This document shows, piece after piece, positions 17,421 through 58,320 of a stretch of DNA of 64,000 nucleotides. The position numbers and the translations under genes are program-made. Source of the DNA: Mugil cephalus (taxonomy: Eukaryota > Chordata > Actinopteri > Mugiliformes > Mugilidae); the NCBI RefSeq assembly GCF_022458985.1, contig NC_061782.1:26097672-26161671 (forward strand), written 5' to 3'. The notes under the pieces are model-generated. The model had not been told where the DNA came from. It did no database searches and saw only the letters and a list, made by a program, of their open reading frames with translations. Numbering within the stretch: the stretch's first letter is position 1; each line of letters opens with the position of its first letter.

Positions 17421-18195
17421 GGTCAAACCAGACTGGTATCCAGGTGTCTCCTATGGAAACAGCTCCCAGTTTGTATTCGGGAGGCAGACACAGTCTCTAC
17501 TTTTAAGGTCAGGCTTAAGACTTTCCTTTTTGACAAAGCTTATAGTTAGCAAAGTTATAGCTAAAGCTTATAGTTCTATTACTAACCGCTGTGTCTCACT
17601 CTCTCCCCTCCCCTCCGCTCCCCCTCCATCTTCTTGTGAGGGTCTCTGGTCTGGAGTGCTGAATATCTGACCTGTGGAGTTCTAAGCTACATCTGCTGCT
17701 GTGGCCTCATCAACGAGCCCAGTCTTCATGGTCTGGAGTGCTGTGTATCAGACCTGTGGAGCTCCATAAACTACATCTGCCCCGGTCTTCATGGCCTCCT
17801 CTCATTGTCTGCTCCTACCTAGATGAACAATTCACCAACCTGCCCATGATTCCTGTCACATAAGATCATCAGCTATGTGTTACATTATTAGATTCTACGT
17901 GTTTCCTTCAGCTTGATATATGTATCTATGACAGAAGTTTGTTCTGTTTCTCCTGTTCTTCTTCTTTTCTTTTCTTCTTCTGTTTCTAGCGGCTGGCCTT
18001 CGGCAGATGGGTCCCTCCATATGAGCTGGGTTCTGCTCAAGGTTTCTTCCTGTTAAAAGGGAGTTTTTCCTTGCCACCGTTGCCCTCAGGCTTGCTCTGG
18101 AGGTTGCAGGCTGGTTTTTGTGAAGCGTCTTGAGACGATTTGTATTGTTATTGGTGCTATAAAAATAAAACTGAATTGAACTGAATTGAACTGAA
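17420..18195 (+). mobile_element. LINE 3' end (RT C terminus plus long 3' UTR)
   Basis: Near 17440-17560 one frame gives a GGRHSLYF/TFKVRLKTFLFDKAYS-like segment, typical of the last residues of some fish LINE ORF2 proteins. A characteristic 3' UTR follows: GGTTTCTTCCTGTTAAAAGG near 18042, GTCTTGAGACGATTTGTATT near 18128, and a (TGAAT)n tail at 18172-18196. The last 110 bases recur at 58210-58320. A diverged copy of the middle section lies at 63060-63620. Confidence 0.6.
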
Positions 18196-20256: not shown

Positions 20257-20260
<4 letters not shown>

Positions 20261-20298
<38 letters not shown>

Positions 20299-20312
20299 GT
20301 GGGTGGGTGGGT

Positions 20313-20349
<37 letters not shown>

Positions 20350-20456
20350 GGTAGGTGGGTGGGTGTGTGTGTAAGTGGGTGGGTGTGTGTGTGTGTGTGG
20401 GTGTGGGTGGGTGTGTGTGGGTGTAGGTGGGTGGGTGGGTGTGTGTGTGTGGTGCA
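20261..20456. repeat. GT / GGGT compound satellite with G-quadruplex motif
   Basis: (GT)n alternates with runs of GGGT and short GTAA or GTAG breaks. At 20301-20315 the plus strand reads GGGTGGGTGGGTGGG, four G3 runs with one-base loops, a canonical intramolecular quadruplex motif. A second near-match (one GG plus three GGG runs) lies at 20426-20439. Confidence 0.95.
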
Positions 20457-20599
20457 TGTATATGTGTGCGTGTAACACTGGTAAGTACTAATTATTTTAT
20501 GTGAGGATAATGCTATCGATTGAGATAGTTAGATAACAGACAAGAAAAAGAAGTATTGAATGGAATTATGTTTGCAAAAATGTGATAGAATCTGACCAG

Positions 20600-24682: not shown

Positions 24683-25977
24683 CTAGTAGTAGAAAGGTAT
24701 GTCATTCATGCAGAAGTCTGGCTGCAGGCTCTCAAAGGTGCAGTCGGACGTGTCCATGGTACAAGGACCACAGTGGCAGCTCAAAGCTGCAGGATAGGTG
24801 ACAATCGGATCCACTCCGTGCAGACAGTCAGGAAGCTCAAACGACTTGTAGTACCATTCCCTGTATGTGCACACATGCTGGTACACGTTTCTGTACGGTA
24901 TCTTGACAGGGTCCTGGAGGGAAGCAGCCTAAGAATCAGTGTCCTGTTCATGGTCTCTTACAGGTCATAGGCCAGGTTAATAGAAATGGGCAAATTAAAG
25001 CAACATTTTGAGTGAGATCATACATGTATTTTGAGAATCTGCTGTCAGAAATGCTCTACTGCTTCAGTTGCAGTGCAGTGTAACAGGTCACACTCAGTGC
25101 TCAAGCATAAACCAAACAACCATGACCAGTTTGTCATCTAACCGACAGCCATAAGGTTGAAGTAATGTCCATTAAGCCATTCACTTATTATCCATAATAC
25201 CTTGGTGGGGCAGAGTCCACTGCAGATAGTTGTTTCCACTGGATGACACCTGGGGCAGCCCTTCTTCTCCAGAAACACTGTCTGGTTTATGAGCTGGCAG
25301 GATGACAGCTGAAAAGGTGTTGGTGCTGTTAAAAGATCCAAAAGAGATATCAACCATAGTGTCTTCGGGAAAATGTTTTAGTTGTTTTAGATGTTTTAGT
25401 TTGTCAGACTTTCATTTGAGTTCAGGTCTTGCATATATTCCTCTCAATACTTCAAATGTGTCAGTTAGATGATTAAAACAAACAAATAACAAAATAAATG
25501 TTAAAAATTACCGCTTTGTCTGTGAAGGTTCTTATGCAGGTTATATGCAAAAAACAAAGCTGAACCAAGAACAAACTGACTTGTATATAGTCAGTATAGG
25601 GTATAGTGTTTTTTATTATGAACATCTGTGTGTCTGTTAAAGAAAAGATACTCACTTATGATTAGACAAGTTTGTTTTGATCCTCATCGCTTCCTTAATG
25701 CTATACTAATGACCCAGTAATGGTTACCAGTGTTTTAGAACTAAAGAAGCTAAATAGCAGAGTCTTCATATATCATATTGTTTTTATATATTCATATATA
25801 AAAGCAAGAGCATTTACCATGGTGCAAGCTGCTAAGTATGATGGACATAAACTGACACAGTCAAACCTTTTTTTATTTTATTTTACCTGCTGGACTAAAG
25901 GCCCAGATGAAAGATGAGGTGCCGAAAAACAAACTTAAAATCAGGGGAGACGTCGCTGTACTGACCTGTGCCATCAT
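24683..25977 (-). CDS. lhb: Luteinizing hormone beta subunit
   Basis: A secreted pituitary gonadotropin beta subunit that pairs with the common alpha subunit and acts on the gonadal LH receptor. Three coding exons give 148 residues: 25977-25887 (phase 1, GTAAAA donor), 25325-25201 (TTAACAG acceptor, GTATTA donor) and 24913-24683 (CTCCAG acceptor, stop at 24683). Residues 1-34 form a hydrophobic signal peptide. The mature chain starts near [12 protein letters not shown] and has the 12 cysteines of the glycoprotein-hormone beta cystine knot, one N-glycosylation site (Asn44) and the fish LH C-terminal stretch [16 protein letters not shown]. The CSGLC loop differs from the CSGHC I recall from other fish. 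The first exon has a good acceptor (TCCCCTACAG) at 25980-25979, so an upstream non-coding exon exists, predicted near 35692-35713. A 9.3-kb retrovirus lies in that intron. The frame is intact. Confidence 0.93.
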
Positions 25978-26001
25978 CCTGTAGGGGACAAGGTGAGCTG
26001 G

Positions 26002-26005
26002 TTGC
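26002..26005. repeat. Target-site duplication (TTGC), lhb-proximal copy
   Basis: TTGC immediately precedes the left LTR and is repeated at 35311-35314 after the right LTR. A 4-bp duplication is typical of gamma- and epsilon-type retroviral integration. Confidence 0.85.
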
Positions 26006-26400
26006 TGTTGTATATTGATGTGCTGAAGAAAGAAGTGATCACCGCTGACAAGTCTTATCTTGCATTTAAAAAGGTTTATTTACAAGAAAGAACAATGTCA
26101 AACTCTTGCCGAATCTGAGAGAGCCTCTGGCCAATCGTCGAATCCCCTCTCCCATTCAGCTCCCACAGTCACCTTATATAGGATGGTCATCCCCGAGAAC
26201 CCCCATACACAAACAAAGCTTTATATTGTATGTCCTGGTTCGTTTCACGAACTGGCATCTGGTAAATTACCTTTTTGACCTTTAACCATTAACCTTTAAC
26301 TATTAACCTTTAACCATTAACTTTTAACTTTATACATCCTTCACAACCCCCAGGCACAGGAAAGGGACAGATAAGAAGAACAAGAAGTTAATATACTACA
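26006..26400 (-). repeat. 3' LTR of the endogenous retrovirus
   Basis: 395 bp, TG...CA on the minus strand, base-for-base the same as 34916-35310 as far as I can read. TATATAAGG (26172-26180) is a TATA box and AATAAA (26075-26080) the poly(A) signal, about 95 bases apart. Tandem CCATTAACCTTTAA-like units lie in U3 (26277-26330). A splice-acceptor-like CTTCTTTCTTCAG ends at 26023. This LTR is the proviral edge nearest lhb, ending 28 bp before its start codon. The 72-residue ORF in it recurs in the other LTR and is not a gene. Confidence 0.97.
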
Positions 26401-26414
26401 TATTTCCCCCCTTC
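26401..26414 (-). other. Retroviral polypurine tract
   Basis: On the minus strand GAAGGGGGGAAATA directly precedes the 3' LTR. It is the expected plus-strand primer site. Confidence 0.9.
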
Positions 26415-27175
26415 GAGGCTCCTAGAGTCTCGACCACCAAAAAACACATTCAAACACACATTCAAACACAAAAACATATTCATTGTTATAACAGAATGAT
26501 ATGTCCTTCTTACAGTGCCAGTTACAGCACAACCCTTAACGATACAACAAATTCATGGAGTGTGAGAGCGAAAACCTATCAGACAGTCATCTTTCTTAAA
26601 ATGTCCACCTTTCAATCTAGACAGGAAATTCTCTCACGGCCCCTCTGTCTAAGGCGACCACACAGTAGTACTCCAAGCCTACTAAAAAGAAGGATTTCTA
26701 AAATGTATAGGGAAATATCTTAAGCAGAGTATATATATATGGATACCTCAGAAAATAAATCAAAACCATATCCAACATCAGGCTGGTCGACCCATCGGAC
26801 CCTCCATTGGACCTTTCCCTTCCTAGCATTACTTTCCTTAAACACCCCGAAACAAAAAGAAAACAACTGAGGTTCCAATACATCCACTTTCTTAACAAGC
26901 ACATAACTCAATTACATTTTTTACAACATTGATAAAACAAAAGTATGTTGCACTGTGATTCTTTTCCACTTTGCTCCATTCGTTTCCCACTGGCACTGCA
27001 AAGCTTCATCACAGTGTCCTAGTTCAGGGTCCTTCAGTCCCCGAACACCCAGCTTCTCACAATGATCCTCCTTCAACGTCCGTCTAGGAAGAGAGAGCAC
27101 AGCAGTATCTTTGCAAACATTAAAACAAATAGACACAATATATTTAAAAACAAACATCAACACACACACATTTCT
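26415..27175 (-). other. Provirus 3' segment, env absent
   Basis: Only about 760 bp separate the truncated integrase from the polypurine tract, far too short for an envelope gene. No signal peptide, surface-protein cysteine pattern, furin site or fusion peptide could be read in any minus-strand frame. I see short unassignable ORFs only. It is either deleted env sequence or a non-coding 3' region. Confidence 0.7.
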
Positions 27176-27412
27176 CCCTTGACTCTGTGGATGATAAACT
27201 GCCCCAAGACGCTGTTTAATACCCAGTTTCTGTAAAATCAATTTCACAGTCTTATCCACAAACTCCTTCCCGTTATCCGAAGATATTCGATCAGGAAGTC
27301 CCCACCTGCTTATGACCTCCCTGCACAGAAACTTTGCAACTGACTGAACATCCTTTCGCTTAGTTGGACAAGCTTCAGGCCATCGTGAAAATCTATCCAC
27401 GACGACCAACAT
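27176..27412 (-). pseudogene. Retroviral integrase core, second part, truncated
   Basis: This frame begins with VVVDRFSRWPEA and contains SSDNGKEF, whose aspartate is the second catalytic residue of the DDE core. It continues to YHPQSQG at 27176. The third catalytic glutamate is expected two residues further on, but the sequence there turns into unrelated residues. The active site is therefore incomplete and the C-terminal domain is gone. It is joined to the upstream pol frame across a frameshift near 27415. Confidence 0.88.
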
Positions 27413-29625
27413 GTACCTCTTTTACCTGCAACCGGTTTTATCATATCGACAAAATCCACCACCAACTCACGCATTGGACCCCTTGGCGTTGGAATATGAC
27501 CTGGAGGAACCATCACACCCCTCCGAACATTATTTTTCAGACAGATAGTGCACCTGCTTATAACATAATCAATTTGCTCAAGCAAATATGGTGCCCAAAA
27601 TCCATACTCTTTTATAATCTTCCTCCTAACTTCCCCCCTTGCAACATGGGCTAAGCCATGTGCTTCCTGAATCATCAATCCCAACAGGTCTGGAGGTGCT
27701 ACTATCAGTCCCTCATGATTTCTCCAAAGACCAGTAGAATCCTGTGTTGCCCCTCGATCTACCCACAACTGTTTATCCACCTCAGAGACAGCTTCCTGCA
27801 TTAAGACCACATCTTTCACTGTAATCTTATCCTCCAAATCTACTTCATGTGTGACCAAGAAAACTTTACCCAACTTCTCAGCTCCTGTCACTGCTTTTGC
27901 AGCCTCATCAGCCGCTTTATTACCCTGAGTGACTCTTGACACATCCTTCTTATGTGCTGCACATTTAGCTATTGCTATTTCTTTAGGTTTCATCATAGCA
28001 TGGAGAAGTTTCATTATCTGAGTGTGATGCTGTATTGGGGAACCATCTGTTTTCTTAAACCCTCGATTTTTCCATACCGATCCAAACAAATGACACACAT
28101 TATGAGCATATGCAGAATCTGTATAGACCGTCACACGCTTGCCTTCCGCTAAAAGACATGCTTCAGTTAACCCCACCAATTCGGCAAGCTGCGCTGATGC
28201 AGGCTGCGGTACCACTTCCGCTTTCTCAACAACAAATCCTGTTCCCTGGGCTTTTACCACCGCATAACCAGCACTCAAATTATCTCCCACACGATAACAG
28301 GACCCATCTGTCCAATACTCTACATCTGCCTCACGCAGTGGGAGAGCTTTCAAATCTGACCTTAATCTTGAGTATTTCTCTGCTTCTTGAACACAATCAT
28401 GTGGTTCACCATCTTCTGGAGTTGGCAAATTCTCAGCTGGATTTATCGTAACACATCTGACTAATGTGACATCCTCCTGTTCTAAAAGCCTATTATAGTC
28501 TCTAAGTCTAGGCATGGTCAACGTATACCTGCCATAGTTCAAAAGATTTCTGAGACTATGATGAGTAAGAATTGTCACTGGATATCCCCTCGTGACCGAA
28601 GATGCTTTGTCATACATTAAATAGACTCCCACCATTGCTCTATAACACAGTGGTAGTCCAAGTTCAACATCTGAGTAAGCAGTAGAATAATATGAAATAG
28701 GTTGAGGACTGGTCCCTGTACCGGTTGGCTGACAAAGAACTGCACATGCATATTTTCCTCCAGCTGAGGTAGATACGTACAACAGAAAATTCTTGGAATA
28801 GTCTGGAAGTGCTAACGCTGGAGCTTCTTGTAACCTCTGTTTAATCGTTTCAAAGGCTAATAAACCATCCTGTGTCCAGAGAAGATTACAATGAAGTTGA
28901 GTACTCCCAGTATCTTTAATCATAGCCCTTAAAGGTCCTGTCAAACTTGCATAATCTTCAATCCATGCTGAAGAGTAACCAGTGATACCGAGGAATGTCA
29001 TCATCTCCCTGACTGTTCGGGGCTTTGGAGCCTTTCGAATAGCCTCTAAATGACTGTCAGAAATACTTCTGTGGCCCTGTGATATTGTTTGACCCAAATA
29101 AACTACCTTCTCCTGACAATATTGCAACTTCTTCTGTGAGACCTTGTGACCATTTTCTGCCAAAATCTGCAACAGCTTAATTGAGTCTTCATGACATGTT
29201 TTTTTATCTGGTGAACAAATAATAATGTCATCTACATATTGAACCACTGTACTTTTTAATTTTTGATCTAGTCCTGCCAAATCATCTTTCAATACTTTAT
29301 TGAAAATATGAGGGCTATGTTTAAATCCCTGTGGCAACCTTTTGTACACATAAAACTGTCCCTTGTATGTGAACCCAAACAAACCCTGACTTTCTACGCT
29401 CAGTAGAACACTGAAAAATGCACCGCATAAATCCAATACTGTAAAATGTGTAGCATTTGGGGGAATTTGAGCTAACAAAGTATGCGGATCTGGCACTTCT
29501 GCTGGAAAATCGGCTACTACTTCGTTCACAAATCTCAAATCATGAACCAAGCGATAGGAATCATCTGGTTTCTGTAAAGGCAACAATGGCGTATTGCTTA
29601 TAGGATTTTGAGTTATCTTCAGCAC
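27310..29625 (-). pseudogene. Retroviral Pol: reverse transcriptase, RNase H, integrase start
   Basis: A 771-residue open stretch. The RT begins with LLPLQKPDDSYRLVHDLRFV, has motif A near residue 65 (VLDLCGAF), LPQGFKHSP near residue 97 and the catalytic YVDD at 130-133. RNase H follows, with YWTDGS, AELVGLTEA and VYTDSAYAHN giving the acidic residues. The integrase zinc-binding H-H-C-C region follows (HGLAHVARG ... CTICLKN), and then the first catalytic Asp in ELVVDFVDM. The frame is lost near 27415. Upstream an in-frame TAA at 29665 separates it from protease. Enzymes of this type copy viral RNA and integrate the DNA; this copy cannot make a full polyprotein. Confidence 0.92.
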
Positions 29626-29664
29626 ATCTGCTCTCAGAAGTCCTTCAAGCTGTGGTTCAATCCC

Positions 29665-30573
29665 TTAAACTGCCTCTTCTTTCAGTGGATACTGATTCTT
29701 CCAAGGAGGTCTGGCTCCAGGTCTAAGCTCCACTTTCACTGGTTGAGCTGATTTAACAAGACCAATATCAGTACTGTATCGAGACCACAAACATTCAGGT
29801 ACTTGCTGTAACATTTCTCTCCTCAAAACGTCTGCGTCCATTTCAACCCCACATATCGTTTCATGTGTCATTTGGACAACTTGTGGTCGCCCATGTCCTT
29901 GAGCAGATATCATAATCTTGAGAAACCGCTGATCCTCACTCTTCCAGATGGCAGAATTCCCCTCTACTGGTGCAAAAACAGCTTTTACTGCTTCCGCCAT
30001 CATTTCTCCTATATCTTTCTGTTCATATTCTTCAGACACCATCAAAGTCACATGTGGTACACTCTCTTTGATTTTATATTCTTCGCTCACATATTCATTC
30101 ATATCAACCATCATTGCTGCTCCTTGTGGTCCCAAAATTATACAAGACGAGGTGAGTTCAACTTCTTTTGGTTGACGACTTATCCACTCCTCACAATTTG
30201 ACTGGGCAGCGTCCTTAAAATACTTGAGCGTACAATGAAGCGAATAGTCTGGAAGTTTTGCATCAGGCATATTTGCTACAATGAACTTCTCCCACAATTT
30301 AACAGGTTCCAAAAACTCTGCACTAAGATCTCCAATCCAGCATACTGAAGAGGCCTCCACATCTGTTGTCATCAATAGTTGGTAAGCAGTATCAGATGGC
30401 ATCTCCACCAAACAGCCGTCGGGTGTACACTTTATAACACACTTCAATCTGCATAAAGCATCTCTTCCTAACAGTGCAATAGGTGTGTGTTCTGAAACCA
30501 ATATAGGTATTGTAGTCTTTTGATTTTTATAACAGAGCTCAATTGGTTTTGTAACAGGTACCAGCTGTTTCAC
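29665..30573 (-). pseudogene. Protease C terminus, 2H phosphoesterase-like domain and RT linker
   Basis: A 302-residue frame. Residues 31-43 contain LLGRDALCRL, the conserved C-terminal element of retroviral aspartic proteases. Residues about 78-215 do not belong to any standard Pol domain: LHCTLKYF (His113) and PHVTLMVS (His174) are two HxTL motifs 61 residues apart in a predicted alpha/beta setting, the hallmark of 2H phosphoesterases. The stretch after 250 (VKVELRPGARPPWKNQYPL) is the usual entry to RT. A frameshift separates the active-site half of the protease at about 30585, and an in-frame TAA (29665) ends the frame just before RT. Family membership rests on two motifs only. Confidence 0.65.
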
Positions 30574-30574
30574 T

Positions 30575-30758
30575 CCCTCAAACCCCGACCAGACATAGGG
30601 AGGTGTATAGCATCTTCAGGCCGAATACAGGTGAAAGCCGCTCCGCTATCTACCATCACTTCTAATGGTCTATTATTTACCTTCACCATTATTGTTGGAT
30701 CTTGTTCCGGCCCTGACACCACCAGCTGACACCCCCCTTTCGAATTTTCCAGGCACCC
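30575..30758 (-). pseudogene. Retroviral aspartic protease, active-site half
   Basis: In the same frame as gag, after the UAG at 30759-30761, the sequence reads QLVVSGPEQDP, then VMVDSGAAFTCI. DSGA (30639-30650) is the catalytic triplet of aspartic proteases. The frame ends at a stop near 30580 because of a one-base shift. The remainder of the protease continues in the frame starting at 30573. Confidence 0.88.
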
Positions 30759-32912
30759 CTAAAATCCTTGCTCTGGACCCCTATAAGGGTTCGCCGGTCC
30801 CCTGATTATCAATTGCTGACCTCTGAATCCTCCTCTTGCATTTCCCCTGAAGTTTCCTCTGAAATTTCCTCCTGGTCTATCACACTCACGAGCAAAGTGT
30901 CCAAACTGTCCACAGTTATAACACACTTCTGAGAACTGTTGGAAATTAAAGTTTCCTCTTCCTCTTCCAAAGGTTCCTCGACCTCTTCCTCTCCATATTT
31001 GCAGCTGGCCAAAAGTTGGTTGTGTGTTATAAACAACAGGGACCACTGGGGACGGTTGAGGTGATTGAAACTGAACCTGGTTTGGCTGCAATTGTGGTGG
31101 CGGCTGATTTTGTTCAGGCTGGCTCTGTAAAACTAAAGCCTGCTTCTTCTCCTTCTTCTTGTTATCCACCAATTGTATTTAATTGAGTTTCCGAAGAGTT
31201 TCTTGATCTTGTTCCTTCTGATCATACTCCTTCTTTCTATACAGGTCCACTTGATGTGCTACATGGTCTGTATATACACCCTTCGCCATATTTCCAAGAC
31301 CAACCACTTCTGCCAATTTGCTCCGCACTGGTAGAGGTAGCCCCTTCTGTATCTTGGCTCGCAAAATTGATTGCTCCATTTGGCTCTCCTCTGGATCGTT
31401 TCCTGTGACATTTCTCCGCACTTGATAGGCTCTTGACACATAGGCTCTCGGATTTTCTTCCTGTCCCAGTGGCTCAATGAGAATGTTGTCGGGGTGTATA
31501 TTTGTCGGAAATGTATCTTTCAATGCTCTCCATACTCGACCTCTATTTGCTGCAAACAGCTCTGAATCATTTACAGCAGTTTCCACATAACGGTTTAATC
31601 CAGCTCTCTGCAAAATCTCCCCCATGGCTGGAACCCCAAGTATATTAGCCAGCAATCTCTTAATGTCTCCTACTGCAGCTTGCGTCCCCACCATGATCTC
31701 TTTGAACTTTGAGATCCAAGGGTGTGCTCCATCTTGAAGAGTAGGTAACTTTTCAAGTATATCTGACATGTCAGTACTCTGCCAAGGTTTATACTCCAAG
31801 TTCTGACCTCTTATGACAACTGGACACATCTTACCAGGCTTCTTCTCTTTCCTTGAACGCAGTTCATATTCCTTGTCCTGTTTTTGGGAACCTGTTTTCC
31901 GCAACTCTTTCTTCTGAATCTGCAGTTCTTGTAATTGGTCTTCTAATGCCTTCCTTCCTTTTGGTGTAGTGCATTTGTCCAGACATCTACAGCATCGATC
32001 TATATTCTCTTCAACTTCTCTTAAAATCTGTCGTCTTTCTTCTTCTCTATAAGCAGTTTTTATCTTAGCAGACTTCAAAAGAGTAGGACTCTCACTTTCT
32101 TCATCACTTTCCTCATTCTCAATCTCATTTTCACTTCCACTTTCACCTTCAACTTCACTTTCATCTCTCAGTTCCATTCTTCTTCCTGTTGTACCTCCTC
32201 TTCTTTCCGCTCTGGCCAGTAGTCGTCTGACTGCTGGATCATATCCTCCCATGGCTTCTTCTTCATCACTCTGATCCTCCACTTCTCCAAAATCCATCCT
32301 TTTAATTCTCAATCGTCCTCCGGTCTCCAAACGTGTCGTTTTCTTTTTACTTTTTGTACTTGGATACATCCTAATAGTTGTCTCTGCTTTCCCCCACTTC
32401 TATAACCTGCTCAGCCTCATTCTTAATGTGGTAATTGCCCTCTTGACTAATTACCGGAAGCTGAGGATAAACTTCCCTGAGCTCCATCTCCTTCTTATAC
32501 GGCGGAGGTCTCTGTACTGAAACTACATGTGAAAAGGGTGCATCAATCTCTGCCATTAACTTCTCTGTTTTCTTCACATTCTTTTTCATTTCATCTACCG
32601 TCTTCTCTTCACAGTCTTTCTTCATCTCCATCCATTTCTGTCCCTCCTTCTCAAACAACTGGAGAATGCCAAGCTCCGTTTGTCTCTTCTGTTTACGTCT
32701 TTCACCTTTTCTTCCTTTCTTTTCGTCTTATATGTGGTCACAAGCACCTGTATTGTTTTTATTACTTCTGGATTAAAGGTTCCTATCACTGGCCATGGTT
32801 GCTCAATTTCAGGCCAACGCTTACATTTCTGTGACATCTTTGCAATACCTTTAATTAAAGGGTTATTCTTCTGAACTACCTCAACAGGAGTAGTTACTTT
32901 TGAGTTATCCAT
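30759..32912 (-). pseudogene. Retroviral Gag (matrix, capsid, nucleocapsid), broken
   Basis: Starts at ATG 32912 (no glycine at position 2, so no obvious myristoylation). The matrix-like part contains a PPPY late-domain motif at about 32510. A frameshift near 32690 and another near 32371 divide it. The frame 32369-31179 has an acidic stretch, a coiled-coil-like charged region, then capsid with a major-homology-like segment (LGQEENPRAYVSRAYQVRR). An in-frame TAA at 31179-31181 separates nucleocapsid (31178-30762), which has one CCHC knuckle ([15 protein letters not shown]) and RG-rich flanks. Gag ends in UAG at 30759-30761 and protease continues in frame. Gag forms virus particles and packages RNA. 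Confidence 0.9.
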
Positions 32913-33686
32913 TTTTGATATAATAGTAACACCCCCTTTTTATCTGTAATCAAATTCAACCTAATTAAAAATTACCTTAACTCTATTCTATTATCCTATT
33001 ATTATGTTTATTTTAATTGATACACTATTATTATTACTACCTATATTCCCCTTTTTATCACAATCAACAAACAAATGAATCAATTTGCCAACTTCAGAGG
33101 ATGCAAAAACAACCCTACAGATGTAAGAGCAAACAACGCCAGGTCCACACACAATATCAACCATATACAAACAACCGATCAAATTGCAAGGTACAGCTTC
33201 CCCAACTCAGCAGAAATTAAACTCTGTTTTCTGAATGGTCAGTCATTGCCAAGCCTCAAACTGCAACATACATGCTATGTGCAAACAAATGAATATACTG
33301 TAATTGTCCCAAATCTGATTACCAATCAAACAATATATGTATCATCAATATCAACTATTAACAAATGCATAGAGGTCAAAAAGCAGGTAGGTTAGAAAGA
33401 GTCTGTGGATAAAATCACACTGGCCTTATTGCTGGGTTCAGATGCGTGTGCTGTCGTCTGCAAGCCTCAGGTTTCCTGTGAGGTAGACCAGCTGTTCTCT
33501 CCTCTGCCTCCAGACACCCCCCTTGTCCTTTTGCTTCCTTCTTGAACTCTCACCCCATAAAAAGAGACAACAGGCAAACACTTTAACATTGTAGAAAACC
33601 ACTAAGTACAATACACTCTTCAATGTGACTAACACATTCCTGCCAACACTTTCCTTTATTATTTCTTTAAATATAAAGTCCTTTTT

Positions 33687-33850
33687 CTGGGGCTCATATA
33701 TTTTAACAGTTTCCAAAGTCCTCCAAGCAGAGGCTCATAGTATTTTAACCAAAAAAGTCCCCACAAAAGGCTCATACTATATTTATCAAACGTCCTTTAC
33801 AGGCTCATATGTTTATCAAATGTCCTTAAAAAAGGCTCATAGTATTTTAG
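33687..33850. repeat. Degenerate tandem repeat with GGCTCATA core
   Basis: Five copies of GGCTCATA (near 33691, 33731, 33771, 33802 and 33834), each followed by an AT-rich stretch such as GTATTTTA and, in part, a TCC-TT block. Spacing is 30-40 bp. It lies inside the proviral leader. Confidence 0.75.
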
Positions 33851-34647
33851 CAAATACTGAATATGTAAGTATATTATTATTATTTTCATCTCCTTAATCT
33901 CCTATTTCCTAATTTTATTTGTTTTATTCAACATAAAATCTAACATATTACTTCATAAAACCGGTTGCCACACACAACAAGGATCCACAGACAACACATA
34001 CAGAACACACAAATTTAAAGTGATCACACATTTCTCTTCCAAATAACTAAGCCTCTAACTTCTCTCTAACTTCTAACTAACTTCTTTTCTTTTAACTACT
34101 ATTTTCCCTTTCTCTATTAACTATTCCTATTTTCTTCTCTTTTCTTTTTTAGGCGATTCTTTCTAGCGGTCCTAGACCTGCCCTAGTAGCCTCAAGCTAT
34201 AGAACCCCTTTTTCTCTATTCCTTTTTAACTCTTATATCCTCTTTTCTTATTTTCCTCTAAATTTACCTCTTTTTTTGAAAAATTCAAATGTTCCTAATT
34301 TCCCCTGGGCCCAGGAGTTCTCTCTCTCTCTTTTTTATCCTATTTTTACTTTAAGCCAATTCCTTTAAAGCCAATAAAGCCAATTTTCACACTGCTACCA
34401 AAGACCATGTGTCTTACTAGTTACAGCGGTAAAGGGCCCCTCCACTTAACTTTGCACGATGTGAGTTCAGCGCCTCATGCTACTAATTAAGCTTTTCTAC
34501 TCTTATTTCTTCTATTCCTTTTCTATTCTCTTCTTCACTTTTTCTCTATTTGTAGGCCTACTCTTATTTCCCTTCATTCCTTAATCCTAACTTCTCTTTT
34601 TCTTATCTTCTTATTTCCTTTCAAAACTATATCATCCTTACCCCCCT

Positions 34648-34669
34648 TTTGCGTTGCCAGCAACGCAAA
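34648..34669. other. Perfect hairpin in the proviral leader
   Basis: TTTGCGTTG and CAACGCAAA are exact inverted repeats around a CCAG loop. Its location between primer site and gag fits a dimerisation or packaging stem-loop. Confidence 0.6.
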
Positions 34670-34893
34670 GAAACCTCAAATTTAGAAATTTAGAACGATG
34701 AACTACTCCCAACAGCAGCACAACAACCACCCCACAAAGAGCCTTAAACGGTGTGTCCCCACAGCAACACTGCACAGTCCCCACGAGCAAACCAGCGCAC
34801 TATAATGTGAAAAACTCACCCTGTATATAAGTCGACTGATGCGGGAGTCAGCTCCTCAGGACTGAAAGCAGATGCTGAGAGGCCACAAACACG

Positions 34894-34911
34894 TCCAAGT
34901 TCGTGACGCCA
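34894..34911 (-). other. Retroviral primer-binding site
   Basis: TGGCGTCACGAACTTGGA on the minus strand, four bases after the 5' LTR. It starts with the obligatory TGG that pairs with a tRNA CCA end. I could not match the rest to a specific tRNA. Confidence 0.75.
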
Positions 34912-34915
34912 AAAT

Positions 34916-35310
34916 TGTTGTATATTGATGTGCTGAAGAAAGAAGTGATCACCGCTGACAAGTCTTATCTTGCATTTAAAAAGGTTTATTTACAAGAAAG
35001 AACAATGTCAAACTCTTGCCGAATCTGAGAGAGCCTCTGGCCAATCGTCGAATCCCCTCTCCCATTCAGCTCCCACAGTCACCTTATATAGGATGGTCAT
35101 CCCCGAGAACCCCCATACACAAACAAAGCTTTATATTGTATGTCCTGGTTCGTTTCACGAACTGGCATCTGGTAAATTACCTTTTTGACCTTTAACCATT
35201 AACCTTTAACTATTAACCTTTAACCATTAACTTTTAACTTTATACATCCTTCACAACCCCCAGGCACAGGAAAGGGACAGATAAGAAGAACAAGAAGTTA
35301 ATATACTACA
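34916..35310 (-). repeat. 5' LTR of the endogenous retrovirus
   Basis: Same 395-bp sequence as 26006-26400, with TATA box at 35082-35090 and poly(A) signal at 34985-34990. It lies on the lhb-promoter side of the insertion, in lhb sense, and is followed at 35311-35314 by the TTGC duplication. Confidence 0.97.
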
Positions 35311-35691
35311 TTGCTAAGTTAATTAGTTATCAATTTACATTCTTTGGCTAACAAACCCACTAGCCTATGACTCAACTTCACCAATCATTTTGAACCTGTG
35401 TTAATAAAAAATAAATAAATAAATAAACTTTTTGATTAAGTAAAAATAATGTTTTTGCCGAGGTTTGAGCCCTAAGAATGATTATCCCATCAATAAAGTA
35501 TTTATGGATATTTTTTTAGGAATTGACTTCTAGTCTACATAATCCTTAATTAATCCATAATTAATACAGTAGCTATAATTTATTTAAATTCCTATGCTAT
35601 GATGTAACATCAATAAAAGAAAAAAGTGATAACAACAAATCCAGAACATTCAAATAAATCACATGTTTTCATTCAAAGCTGCCTTACTTAC

Positions 35692-35713
35692 CTCTCCTGT
35701 GTTTGCAGGCAAT
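35692..35713 (-). other. lhb: Predicted non-coding exon 1 of lhb
   Basis: A strong donor (ACAGGAGAG/GTAAGTAAG) on the minus strand lies about 48-54 bases downstream of a CATAAAA box. A short untranslated first exon fits gonadotropin beta genes. Before the provirus inserted, the intron to the coding exon would have been about 410 bp. The transcription start is inferred only from TATA spacing. Confidence 0.55.
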
Positions 35714-35739: not shown

Positions 35740-35746
35740 TTTTATG
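35740..35746 (-). promoter_or_regulatory. lhb: Predicted TATA-like box of lhb (CATAAAA)
   Basis: CATAAAA on the minus strand, about 30 bases before the inferred start of the short exon. Confidence 0.45.
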
Positions 35747-35921
35747 GAGGATGCCTGACTTTGGCATCCAGGACAAAGCATGTTTAATGTCACTGCAGCT
35801 TTAACTCTGATTACTTTTTTTCCCGTGAAAGGAAGAAGCACAGTACGCTTAAAGTCTTTATTTATCCAGGGGATTATTCTCCCTGGATCCGTTGTGCTTA
35901 TTTTAACAAGAAGGGGGAGTG

Positions 35922-35940
35922 CAAGGTCAGGGTCAGGTCA
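35922..35940 (+). promoter_or_regulatory. SF-1 (gonadotrope) element and nuclear-receptor half-site array
   Basis: CAAGGTCA (35922-35929) is a consensus SF-1/NR5A monomer site. GGGTCA and AGGTCA follow directly, making three half-sites in 17 bp. It is about 210 bp upstream of the inferred lhb start. SF-1 sites of this type drive LH-beta in pituitary gonadotropes. Confidence 0.6.
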
Positions 35941-46000: not shown

Positions 46001-49000
46001 CAGTCAGAGCAAAGTTTACAGAATTTCTCATAAGATTAATAATTTCATCTGTTTATTTAGAAGATATATATTTTAGATATAGATGGGATGTCTGTTTGAA
46101 TGATTCTGATCCTAATCTTAACTTATCACAGTGATTATTTTGAGGATAAAATAATCTTAAAAGTCTTTTGAATGGCTCTTCGAAAGAATCGGATCCACAA
46201 GACCTGTCTCCCTTCAAAGAGCCATACAGTGGTGCTTGAAAGTTTGTGAACCCTTTAGAATTTTCTATATTTCTGCATAAATATGGCCTAAAACATCAGC
46301 AGATTTTTTACACAAGTCCTAAAAGTAGATAAAGAGAACCTAGTTAAACAAATGAGACAAAAATATTATACTTGGTCATTGGTCATTTATTAATTGAGGA
46401 AAATGATCCAATATTACGTATTAGTCAGTGGCAAAAGTATGTGAACCTCTAGGATTAGCAGTTCCTTTGAAAGTGAAATTAGACTCAGGTCAATCAATGG
46501 GATGAGAATCAGGTATGAGTGGGTACCCTGTTTCATTTAAAGAACAGGGATCTATCAAAGTCTGCTCTTCACAACACGTTTGTGGAAGTGTATCATGGCA
46601 TGAACAAAGGAGATTTCTGAAGACCTCAGAAAAAGAGTTGTTGATGCTCATCAGGCTGGAAAAGGTTACAAAACCATCTCTAAAGAGTTTGGACTCCACC
46701 AATCCACAGTCAGACAGATTATGTACAAATGGAGGAAAAATTCAAGACCATTGCTACCCTTCCCAGGAGTGGTCGACCAACAAATATCACTCCGAGAGCA
46801 TGGCGCATAATAGTTGGCGAGATCACAAAGGACCCCAGGGTAACACTGAACAACAATGGTGTGTTTGGCAGGGTTGCAAGGAGAAAGCCACAACTTTTTG
46901 GTTTAACAGAAAAGTGTTATGTTCGGAGAAAGTAAAACAGTGCATTCCAGCATATGAACCCTATCCTATCTGTGAAACATGGTGGGGGTAGTATCAGGGT
47001 TTGGGCCTGTTTTGCTGCATCTGGGCCAGGACGGCTTGCCATCATTGATGGAACAATGAATCAGAATTATATCAGAGAATTATAAAGGAAAATGTCATGA
47101 AGTCTGTCAATGAACTGAATTCAAGAGAAGGTGGATCATGCAGCAAGACAATGTCCCTAAGCACACAAGCCATTCTACCAAAGAATAGTTAAAGAAGAAC
47201 AAAGTTAATGTTTTGGGATGGCCAAGTCCTGACCTTAATCCAATCGGAATGAGGTGGAAGGACCTGAAGCAAGCAGTTAATGTGAGGAAACCCACCAACA
47301 TCCCAGAGTTGAAGCTGTTGGAATGGGCTAAAATTCCTCCAAGCCAGTTCGCAGGGCTGATCAGCAGTTACCGGAAATGTTTAGTTACAGTTATTGCTGC
47401 ACAGGGGGGTCATACCAGATACTGAAAGCTAAGGTTCACATACTTTTGCCACTCACTAATATGTAATATTGGATCGTTTTCCTCAATAAATAAATGACCA
47501 AGTATAATATTTTTGTCTCATTTGTTTAACTAGGTTCTCTTTATCTACTTTTAGGACTTGTGTGAAAATCTGATGCTGTTTTAGGCCATATTTATGCAGA
47601 AACACAGAAAATTCTAAAGGGTTCACAAACTTTCAACCAACACTGTAGATCCAATCTCTACTTTTGGTGAACATGTTGAAATGTTGCATGGAGGTATTGA
47701 AGCCAAGCTTAACCTGTTCGGGGATATTATATACAAGAGCTGCAAGGACAGATTTGGTGAAATTATCGCCAAGCATATGTCTACCCTAAGAAAGAATGGA
47801 AGGGGGGAAAAATAGATCACCCAGCTTGTGCAAAGGCATGGACAACTGGAGGAATGCAACCCAGCCAGAAAGAGAAGGCCTGAAAGCCCTTTGGGAGGAG
47901 GTCAGGCAAAGGCTAGCAAGGCTCCGCTGAGCTGAACGCATACGTAAGTGCAGCAATCAATGGTTGGAGGCACCAAACTACCATCTGGTCAGAGGCTACC
48001 CCCATTGAGAAGCTACATGGACAACATCACCAGCCTCCTTCAGACAGCAGCCTGTACATCTCAGCTGCTGATAAGGTGGGATGAGTTGATGTCATGGGCC
48101 TGCATGAAGGTCAAGTATGCAAATCCCATAGCCTGTCACTCAGGAGAGTGATAATAAGCTGATAACAGAGATAATAACAACACTAATACTTCATCACTGG
48201 GGGAGAGAAAAACCCTCTCCTGATGGAGCAGCCCATCAGAGGCCTAGGAAGGCAGTATACTGCAGAACTGTTCAACAAACAGGTGGGCAGGACTGTCATG
48301 AAACACCTTACAGACGGCCTGGCAAGGACAGACCAAAGTCAACTCCCTGGAAAGTACAAGACCTAGTGCTACCAGTTCACACTCTACAGGAGATTGATGT
48401 GGCTTTTGAAAATGAGCGAAATCACCTACTCCACTGTCAAGATGGATGGAAAAACCAACTCATACATCAGAAAATGGTTTTTGGCTGCCGGGAAAAATGC
48501 ACTGCAACTGTCACTGCAGTCTATCACTGTCAACTGTCAACCACTTGCCTTTTGGGGGACGCTGGGTGATGGGAGGGAAGCTGAGGAATGCTACGAAGGA
48601 ACTTTCAGAGGAGACTGAAAAAGGTAGTTGGGAAGCAGCAGCTCAGGATGTAGAGCGGTCACCCAATAACCGAAAGGTTGGCGGTTTGATTCCGCCCTAT
48701 CCCAAGTCTGTCCATTGTGTCCTTGGACAAGACACTTAACCCACCTTGCTCCCAGGTGCATGCTCCCTGGTGTATGATCGTGAGGCAAAGTGGCGTAGGA
48801 ACAAGCACGTAGGCACAAATTGGCAGCTGTGACTACTGACGTAGTTTACCACCACCAAAGTGTGACCGTGTAAGTGAATGAATAATGCGTACAATTGTAA
48901 GCGCTTTGAGCATCTAAAAATGGAAAGCGCTATATAAAACCAATGCATTATTATTATTAGCTTCTAGCTCTGGCTGAGAAGGAAGGACAGGAGCTGGGGA

Positions 49001-56155: not shown

Positions 56156-57345
56156 ATGGCTGACAGCTGCACAGTGACAACAACTGTCCCAGTCAACGTC
56201 ACCAGCAACAGCACCACACCTGCAGCTGTCCAGGTAGCCACTGTGATCGACTGGTTGACCTTTACCATTGGGTTGCCTGCCATCGGCCTGGCTATTTACA
56301 CCCTAAAGAATCTGTACAAAGGTTTGTCCTCACCTGCTGAGATCAAAAATGTATGTTTTGCAGAAAACACAATCAATGTGTCACATGATGGGGTCTCTGT
56401 ACTTCCATTTGCTATTGAAAGTGTTGTTGTTTGAGAGTAAAAAGTTCAGCCAAAGGTTTTACATAGACATGTAAATGACCAAAGTGCTGCTGTGTGGCTT
56501 GAGAAACTGTACCAGTTTCTACTGTACCAGTACTAATTGTACTGGCACTAGGGTGCCAGTACAATTAGTAGTTTAGTTTTGGTAACACATACATGTGGCA
56601 ATCCTGCGTTCTCTGTCCAGGTGATAGTAAAGTTCCAGTGCACGTCATGTTTCTCCTGATTTCTGACATCATCAGTTTCTTTGGTCGTCCTCGTGTGGAT
56701 AAGGGCATGGAGAGGGGATCTGTCTTCTCTTCCAATCCTACCGACTTCATCTTCTATTTTGGTGTGGTCTCCAACATCACCCTCATGCTGCTCATTGCAC
56801 AGGAACGCCATCTCCTGGTGGCCTACCCACAGTGTCTGGGGTGCTGCAGCATGATAAGGAGGTCTCCTGCAGTGGCCCTGGTGGTGTGGGCCACTCCATT
56901 TGGGATCCTGGCCCTCGCTGTGCTACAGTACAACATGTGGTTTGCCGTGTCTCTGCTTGCTCCTTTCCCCTTCCTCCTCTTCTTTGCTGTAGACGCCTGG
57001 AGAGCCTTGATTTGTTCCCGGTCCAATCCTCCAAACCCAGAGAGGAGGAGGACGGCGTGGGGAATTGGTGCTATCCTGGCCAACTACACTCTCCTCTATT
57101 CCCCCTTCATCCTTAGCATCCTCCTGAAGGCTCTGTGCTGTGATGTGACGGTGGGCTACCTGGGACTGGTGTCTCATCTGCTGCTGTACCTGAGCCCTCT
57201 GGTTGACCCCTTCCTCTACATATTTATGACCAAAGGGCTGAAAGAAGTGCTGCAGGCATTGCCCTGCTGTCAGAACCGAAATCTGAAAGAGAACACAAGA
57301 CTTGCAGTGACTACTGTGGCAGAGACTGTGGAGACAAGACTTTAA
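56156..57345 (+). CDS. Atypical class A (rhodopsin-like) GPCR
   Basis: A seven-pass receptor of 296 residues in two exons: 56156-56321 (GTTTGT donor) and 56621-57345 (TGTCCAG acceptor). The extracellular N terminus has two N-glycosylation sites (NVT, NST). TM1 lies at about residues 27-50 and TM2 around VPVHVMFLLISDII. The TM3 end reads AQERHLLVAYP in place of DRY, and TM7 reads LVDPFLYIFM in place of NPxxY. No cysteine pair for the TM3-ECL2 disulfide is visible, and the TM6 CWxP motif is absent (ANYTLLYSPF instead). The C tail has a CC pair for possible palmitoylation. It resembles lineage-specific teleost receptors without a known ligand. AATAAA lies near 58052. Confidence 0.8.
56531..56570. 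other. Perfect 18-bp hairpin in the GPCR intron
   Basis: Arms at 56531-56548 and 56553-56570 are exact reverse complements around a TAGG loop. The structure ends 50 bases before the exon 2 acceptor. Confidence 0.9.
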
Positions 57346-58209: not shown

Positions 58210-58320
58210 GAATGTAGAATCAGGCTTGCTCTGGAGGTTGCAGGCTGGTTTTTGTGAAGCGTCTTGAGACGATTTGTATTGTTATTGGCGCTATATAAAT
58301 AAAACTGAATTGAATTTAAA
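58210..58320 (+). repeat. LINE 3'-tail copy
   Basis: AGGCTTGCTCTGGAGGTTGC through GTCTTGAGACGATTTGTATT to the (TGAAT) end is nearly identical to 18085-18180. It is a short 5'-truncated insertion of the same LINE family. Confidence 0.75.

Follow-up and report, generated by a model that had tools for sequence, protein, structure and literature searches.

The stretch analysed here, called the window below, comprises 64,000 nucleotides of Mugil cephalus contig NC_061782.1. It contains lhb, the gene for the beta subunit of luteinizing hormone (LH), and an endogenous retrovirus (ERV) that lies in the predicted first intron of that gene. The lhb gene is on the minus strand and has three coding exons, each matched at 100% by tblastn. 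These are the exon with the start codon and signal peptide (25978-25887, donor CAG/GTAAAA at 25887), the exon for the first part of the mature subunit (25325-25201, the acceptor having its first exon base at 25325), and the final coding exon with the stop codon (24913-24683). The joined product of 148 amino acids carries the cystine-knot domain (PF00007, E 4.9e-33) and equals the annotated M. cephalus 'gonadotropin subunit beta-2-like' protein across all 148 residues at 100%. This match identifies the host as flathead grey mullet and bears out the coding structure without recourse to the original prediction, which had called attention to the insertion. No second lhb is present within the window, where the remaining matches of the three exons are short (E 0.46 or worse). 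Mullet LH-beta looks rather divergent, with a top full-length match of 77% in other species and some partial matches of up to 84%.

The ERV occupies positions 26006-35310 (9,305 bp) and is bounded by two long terminal repeats (LTRs), at 26006-26400 and 34916-35310, which are identical at 395 of 395 bases and read TGTT...TACA on the plus strand. An exact 4-bp target-site duplication, TTGC, is found at 35311-35314 on the 5′-LTR side and at 26002-26005 on the 3′-LTR side; one further base shared beyond the LTRs (26401 and 35311) was treated as coincidence. No LTR copies other than these two are present in the window. The exact LTR pair, the exact duplication and the retroviral domains between them show that the insertion is not a chance arrangement. 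Three features, namely the purine tract next to 26401, the primer-site-like stretch adjoining 34915 and the strand on which the pol domains lie, show that transcription of the element follows the minus strand, in the sense direction of lhb.

Only 27 host bases separate the 3′ LTR from the ATG exon. These bases (25979-26005, minus strand) are the remaining end of the host intron, with its pyrimidine tract and acceptor. The acceptor, CCCCTACAG on the minus strand, has its last base at 25979; the first base of the exon is the G at 25978, followed by the ATG at 25977-25975. The LTR edge, the acceptor end and the start codon thus lie where the original prediction had put them, at 26006, 25979 and 25977. 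Predicted intron 1 measures 9,713 bp, and 404 bp when the element and one TTGC are removed, so that the proposed growth to about 9.7 kb stands with a slightly shorter starting length than the 410 bp or so first given. A class I ERV sits in predicted lhb intron 1, in the direction of the gene and 27 nt before the ATG-exon acceptor; as a sense insertion near an exon it resembles, in placement, the insertional mutations caused by intronic ERVs. None of the coding bases of LH-beta is hit.

Anatomy, age and relatives of the provirus

Read on the minus strand, the 5′ LTR is adjoined by a primer-binding-site-like stretch that starts with TGG (34897-34915, read directly). ARAGORN finds no tRNA genes in the window, and no tRNA was matched to this stretch. 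Gag extends over 31149-32631 in two frames that switch near 32390, and has a stop at 31181-31179; tblastn of the M. cephalus protein P0207 matches frame -2 at 32631-32386 and frame -3 at 32393-31149. The nucleocapsid part, with a CCHC zinc knuckle, is at 30762-31178 (PF00098, E 5.4e-08). The first half of the protease (30576-30719; PF13975, PF13650 and PF00077) is followed by a frame switch near 30580, placed from the tblastn frames. An open frame at 29668-30615 then encodes the protease end, a 2H-phosphoesterase domain and the start of reverse transcriptase (RT), and ends at a stop at 29667-29665. RT, RNase H and the start of integrase follow at 27313-29664 (PF00078, 2.9e-28; PF00075, 2.3e-21), with a switch near 27420 to the different frame that holds the integrase core and end (26921-27421; PF00665, 3.2e-15; tblastn frame -1). 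A polypurine tract (26401-26413, read directly) adjoins the 3′ LTR.

By Pfam and tblastn, gag, protease, RT, RNase H and integrase are thus present in order and in broken frames. The 520 bp between the end of the integrase frame (26921) and the LTR leave no room for env, and the one frame searched there has no Pfam match. The element is an env-less ERV and not a complete retrovirus.

Between the primer site and gag are about 2.2 kb (32640-34896, minus strand) in which few frames were searched and no protein was recognized; these frames gave just a weak match to Gag_MA (E 0.033), at 32625-32939 beside gag. Walleye dermal sarcoma virus (WDSV) has an extra gene between primer site and gag.

Since the LTRs do not differ at any of their 395 bp, the 95% upper limit on the age of the insertion is 0.38-1.9 My, if substitution rates between 1e-8 and 2e-9 per site per year are assumed. 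The body of the element has five reading-frame breaks, which are two stops (gag and RT) and three frame changes (gag, protease and integrase). Annotated proteins from other M. cephalus copies read past the gag stop (P0205 and P0207, ending 12 residues on) and past the RT stop (P0140). With divergence at its 95% upper value, 0.38% in each lineage, and with assumed proportions of the types of change, a length of 5.5 kb would be expected to gain about 1.0 nonsense change and about 1.7 frameshifts, and decay after insertion is for that reason less likely as the only cause of the five breaks than earlier breakage or assembly errors. Probably the copy was broken before it moved and was carried in trans by proteins of an intact relative, which explains the identical LTRs and the broken genes together; residual indel errors in a repeat are the main alternative. 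The 'near-fresh' age first proposed for the insertion agrees with the LTRs, whose identity is its sole basis, and has to be set against the five breaks in the body.

The best solved matches of the RT/RNase H region are RT/RNase H p80 chains (E 7.3e-107), ahead of Ty3 and HIV RT among the best 60 of 211 matches. We take the p80 chains to be those of XMRV/MLV, and certain lower-ranked chains to be of foamy virus. The element is accordingly placed with the class I (gamma/epsilon) retroviruses, by structure-chain matches rather than by a tree. A protein search gave 137 relatives among the 7992 best-sharing candidates, and 120 of these were listed. Among the matches listed, RT/RNase H sequences that are 81-90% identical, some over part of their length, come from the percomorphs Pampus, Archocentrus, Scortum and Amphiprion and from the characiform Astyanax; in the characiforms Pygocentrus and Metynnis the match spans about half of the query or less. 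Such high identity across teleost orders suggests a recent cross-species spread of the ERV family. The 396-aa gag frame has 96 relatives, including three M. cephalus proteins at 93-97%.

The 2H-phosphoesterase domain lies between protease and RT, at about residues 84-250 of the 29668-30615 frame, and has the motifs HCT and HVT. Both HxT/S motifs are found in 13 of 19 relatives inspected (from the 120 listed); four of the other six begin after or inside the domain and two carry substitutions. In the aligned rows both histidines are invariant (12 of 12). An AlphaFold2 model of the whole frame (mean pLDDT 67.6, pTM 0.54) gave Foldseek and VIA-align matches to CNPase at 13-17% identity. The Pfam family 2_5_RNA_ligase2 matches at E 0.009 only, under its cut-off. 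In a profile search of the PDB the best 60 of 448 matches were chains of RT or of retroviral polyproteins, and the assignment therefore rests on fold and motifs. By these, the pol frame carries a domain of the 2H phosphoesterase superfamily, with putative catalytic activity. A 2H-phosphoesterase domain in pol is a feature reported for WDSV. Among the viral structure matches of the frame that carry a name, the highest are proteins of walleye epidermal hyperplasia virus 1 (WEHV1; E 1.1e-10, 19% identity) and WDSV (5.9e-09, 14%). Both are labelled 'Envelope polyprotein', and the matched part may or may not be pol. The top viral match, Q2VF30, at 25% identity, has no name attached.

Splicing, polyadenylation and promoter signals at the insertion

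The predicted 5′ untranslated exon 1 of lhb is at 35692-35713 on the minus strand. Its donor, GAG/GTAAGT, follows 35692, and its 5′ end, originally given as 35713, is not fixed. Splice sites and branch points were scored with crude weight matrices. Between 36000 and 24600 on the minus strand, the predicted donor is the highest scoring of 727 GT dinucleotides; over both strands of the window it comes second among 7651. The ATG-exon acceptor at 25978 scores highest of the 981 AG dinucleotides of that region, and across both strands of the window it ranks 34th among 8287. Upstream of predicted exon 1 are a CATAAA box at 35746, TAATCC at 35876, and TGACCTTG at 35929 with neighbouring half-sites (35929-35940). 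TAATCC is presumably a Pitx-like site and TGACCTTG presumably an SF-1-like site; together with the CATAAA box they would be in keeping with a gonadotropin beta promoter. If lhb transcription began instead immediately ahead of the ATG exon, the promoter itself would hold the provirus, and the effect would be larger.

When the site is emptied, the two highest-scoring branch-point candidates within 18-60 nt of the exon lie at -36 (2.68) and -32 (2.13). In the filled site the best candidates in this range belong to the LTR end, at -58 (0.79), -46 (-0.08), -30 (-0.27) and -38 (-0.35). A further A at -16 scores 2.87 with or without the element, and is probably too near the exon to serve. The original prediction had placed a young ERV between a plausible branch point and the acceptor of predicted intron 1, and this is supported. 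Separation from the branch point holds in that CTAAT at -36, within the sequence then named, and the candidate at -32 have been moved by more than 9 kb; against this, the LTR end supplies weaker candidates within range. Failure of splicing consequently does not follow, the branch point being weakened and not lost.

The element also adds signals that are read in the direction of lhb. Each LTR has an AATAAA (34990 and 26080) and a cryptic acceptor (first exon base 34932 and 26022, score 4.62). Higher-scoring acceptors are found in the element body at 27083, 26678, 29571, 33114 and 29207, the range in the element being 4.6-6.0; an acceptor-like site at 35395 (5.65) is native and is there with or without the insertion. 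The viral leader has a donor, AGG/GTGAGT at 34820, which ranks second of the 727 GT dinucleotides. The LTR acceptor at 34932 and this donor delimit a predicted pseudo-exon of 113 nt (34820-34932, minus strand) that contains no ATG. In addition, the 3′ LTR has TATATAA at 26180 and further TATA-like motifs at 26225 and 26334, which suggest a start site near 26150. Sense orientation, combined with a polyadenylation (poly(A)) signal per LTR and the cryptic splice sites, is the main addition to the original prediction and gives a stronger reason to expect an effect. That the insertion should change splicing or expression of lhb, or be polymorphic, is a fair expectation.

Possible consequences for lhb

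The explanation preferred here, in which we place about even confidence, is that a recent and probably already defective ERV in lhb intron 1 has given rise to a hypomorphic allele, in which lhb mRNA is reduced mildly to moderately, and not to a null. A probably defective class I element would have jumped recently into the predicted intron, 'recent' meaning zero LTR differences. Given the strength of the two host splice sites, exon 1 would still be spliced to the ATG exon in transcripts from the native promoter, and a weaker branch point within the LTR would now be used to remove the enlarged intron. The pre-mRNA would have to traverse two LTR poly(A) signals, the cryptic acceptors and the strong leader donor, and a share of the transcripts would stop inside the element or take up the 113-nt viral exon in the 5′ untranslated region (5′ UTR). 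LH-beta itself would be unchanged, since its coding bases are untouched, and splicing to the ATG exon cannot alter the protein because the sole untranslated base of that exon is the G before the ATG.

Observations on mammalian ERVs are consistent with an effect of this kind. In mouse, 20 of 26 mutagenic LTR insertions that lie near exons and whose orientation is known are reported to be sense, as opposed to 435 of 1447 full-length elements near exons in the reference genome (PMC3088655). The same source describes a depletion near exons, in mammals, of near full-length LTR elements, above all those in sense (PMC3088655). With the mouse ETn element, use of an LTR acceptor and an internal donor is given as the commonest simulated disturbance, at 36% of simulated transcripts (PMC1794541), and host transcripts altered by intronic MLV insertions have been described (PMC6466679). 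Adult lhb-/- zebrafish are reported to be infertile (PMC13275923), and a null allele is therefore unlikely to be common.

Several points weigh against this explanation. An effect on lhb is inferred from the anatomy and signals of the insertion in the DNA. Exon 1 is predicted, as is its donor at 35692, and no paper establishing the 5′ exon of teleost lhb was found in the literature searched. The weight matrices used for splice sites and branch points are crude. The lhb strand of the 9.7-kb intron has 10 AATAAA and nine ATTAAA motifs, one AATAAA (35584) being in native intron sequence, and an AATAAA motif alone thus means little. The final 27 bases ahead of the ATG exon are intact, and the published patterns used for comparison are mammalian.

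A second possibility, a less probable one, is that the provirus is a neutral passenger. The enlarged intron would be cleanly removed, lhb output would be normal, and the insertion would be drifting or fixed. Both lhb splice sites are still the top-scoring ones of the region, the coding sequence is intact and the same as that of the annotated protein, and M. cephalus is reported to spawn in the wild in the Mediterranean from July to October (PMC9023507). The sense orientation, the poly(A) signal in each LTR, the distance of only 27 nt to the acceptor and the mammalian depletion of such elements close to exons (PMC3088655) speak against this possibility.

Takeover of the promoter is unlikely. 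Transcripts starting in the 3′ LTR near 26150 would run straight into the ATG exon with a leader of about 173 nt, and lhb would come under LTR control. TATATAA at 26180 is on the lhb strand, splicing would be unnecessary, and the leader from the presumed start has one upstream ATG (26065), which opens a frame of eight codons. On the other hand, LTR activity in the pituitary would have to be assumed, the poly(A) signal of the LTR itself lies about 70 nt past the presumed start, and ERV LTRs are frequently silenced. A precedent of a kind is the insertion in human CGB1/2, reported to have created a putative new promoter and exon 1 (PMC2599907).

A bolder proposal, and quite an improbable one, is that control of LH in the mullet lineage has come to include the provirus, its LTR and leader giving lhb a promoter or the 113-nt 5′ UTR exon. 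Output of LH-beta would then be under retroviral regulation and would vary between carriers and non-carriers of the insertion, which might add to differences in captive maturation.

Very doubtful is a strongly damaging allele, rare or heterozygous in the sequenced fish. The youth of the insertion (no differences in 395 bp) and the infertility of lhb-/- zebrafish (PMC13275923) would fit it, but both splice sites are kept and the annotated gene has the same protein. An assembly artefact, with a provirus placed from elsewhere or mixed from several copies, is highly improbable: further copies exist on other contigs, and the frame breaks could be residual errors in an assembly such as the published one of PacBio subreads, wtdbg2 and short-read polishing (PMC9247318), yet a misjoin would not be expected to leave a perfect 4-bp duplication around an element whose two LTR ends are complete, and the reported subread N50 of 28.7 kb would span the element, if that assembly, which may not be the source of the window, applies (PMC9247318).

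The insertion is an ordinary type of event in an extraordinary place. Large, in sense and next to the ATG exon of lhb, the provirus offers a concrete variant for genotyping in existing reads, and a natural test of how far the proximity of a sense provirus to an acceptor is tolerated in an essential gene. Public M. cephalus reads are named under BioProjects PRJNA675305, PRJNA1220361 and PRJNA1221841, the latter two being described with 72 re-sequenced fish from the Mediterranean (PMC9247318, PMC12382950); within the Mugilidae, Planiliza haematocheila also has an assembly (PMC9247318). By titles and abstract openings in the open-licence literature, no published ERV insertion in a fish lhb was found.

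Other repeats of the window and comparison with known systems

Elsewhere in the window there is an inverted repeat, 46225-46448 and 47432-47647 (224 columns, 91.5% identity), possibly a foldback element or one resembling miniature inverted-repeat transposable elements (MITE-like). A direct repeat of 95 bp (18086-18180 and 58220-58314) has 97.9% identity between copies 40 kb apart, and a GT-rich minisatellite with a period of about 50-52 is at 20258-20473. An open frame at 56593-57345 on the plus strand has a rhodopsin-type receptor domain (PF00001, E 6.9e-09).

The 2H domain has its closest fold in the CNPase/RICH-type 2H phosphoesterases of vertebrates, but is found here inside a retroviral pol frame, its activity being putative. 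The epsilonretroviruses WDSV and WEHV1 share with the mullet element a fish host and the structure matches of the 2H frame, whereas the mullet copy has no env and has five frame breaks. ZFERV and SSSV are also named among epsilonretroviruses and their relatives (PMC4977317).

As regards the insertion, the closest parallels are mouse intronic sense ERVs, i.e. MLV in Hr, Aifm1 and Myo5a and ETn in Adcy1 and Zhx2 (PMC6466679, PMC3088655). As reported, these too are intronic, follow the direction of the gene and bring LTR poly(A) signals and splice sites. The mullet case differs in that it concerns a fish hormone gene, has the ERV 27 nt away from the acceptor at which the first coding exon begins, and is known from DNA alone. 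Human CGB1 and CGB2 of the LHB/CGB cluster offer a second parallel, in which new 5′ sequence comes from an insertion immediately ahead of the coding exon of a gonadotropin beta gene (PMC2599907). That insert, of 736 or 724 bp, is reported to have replaced 52 bp of promoter and the 5′ UTR and to have shifted the frame, whereas mullet lhb keeps its native promoter and ATG; and, unlike the mullet element, it is not called a provirus in the accessible text of that report (PMC2599907).

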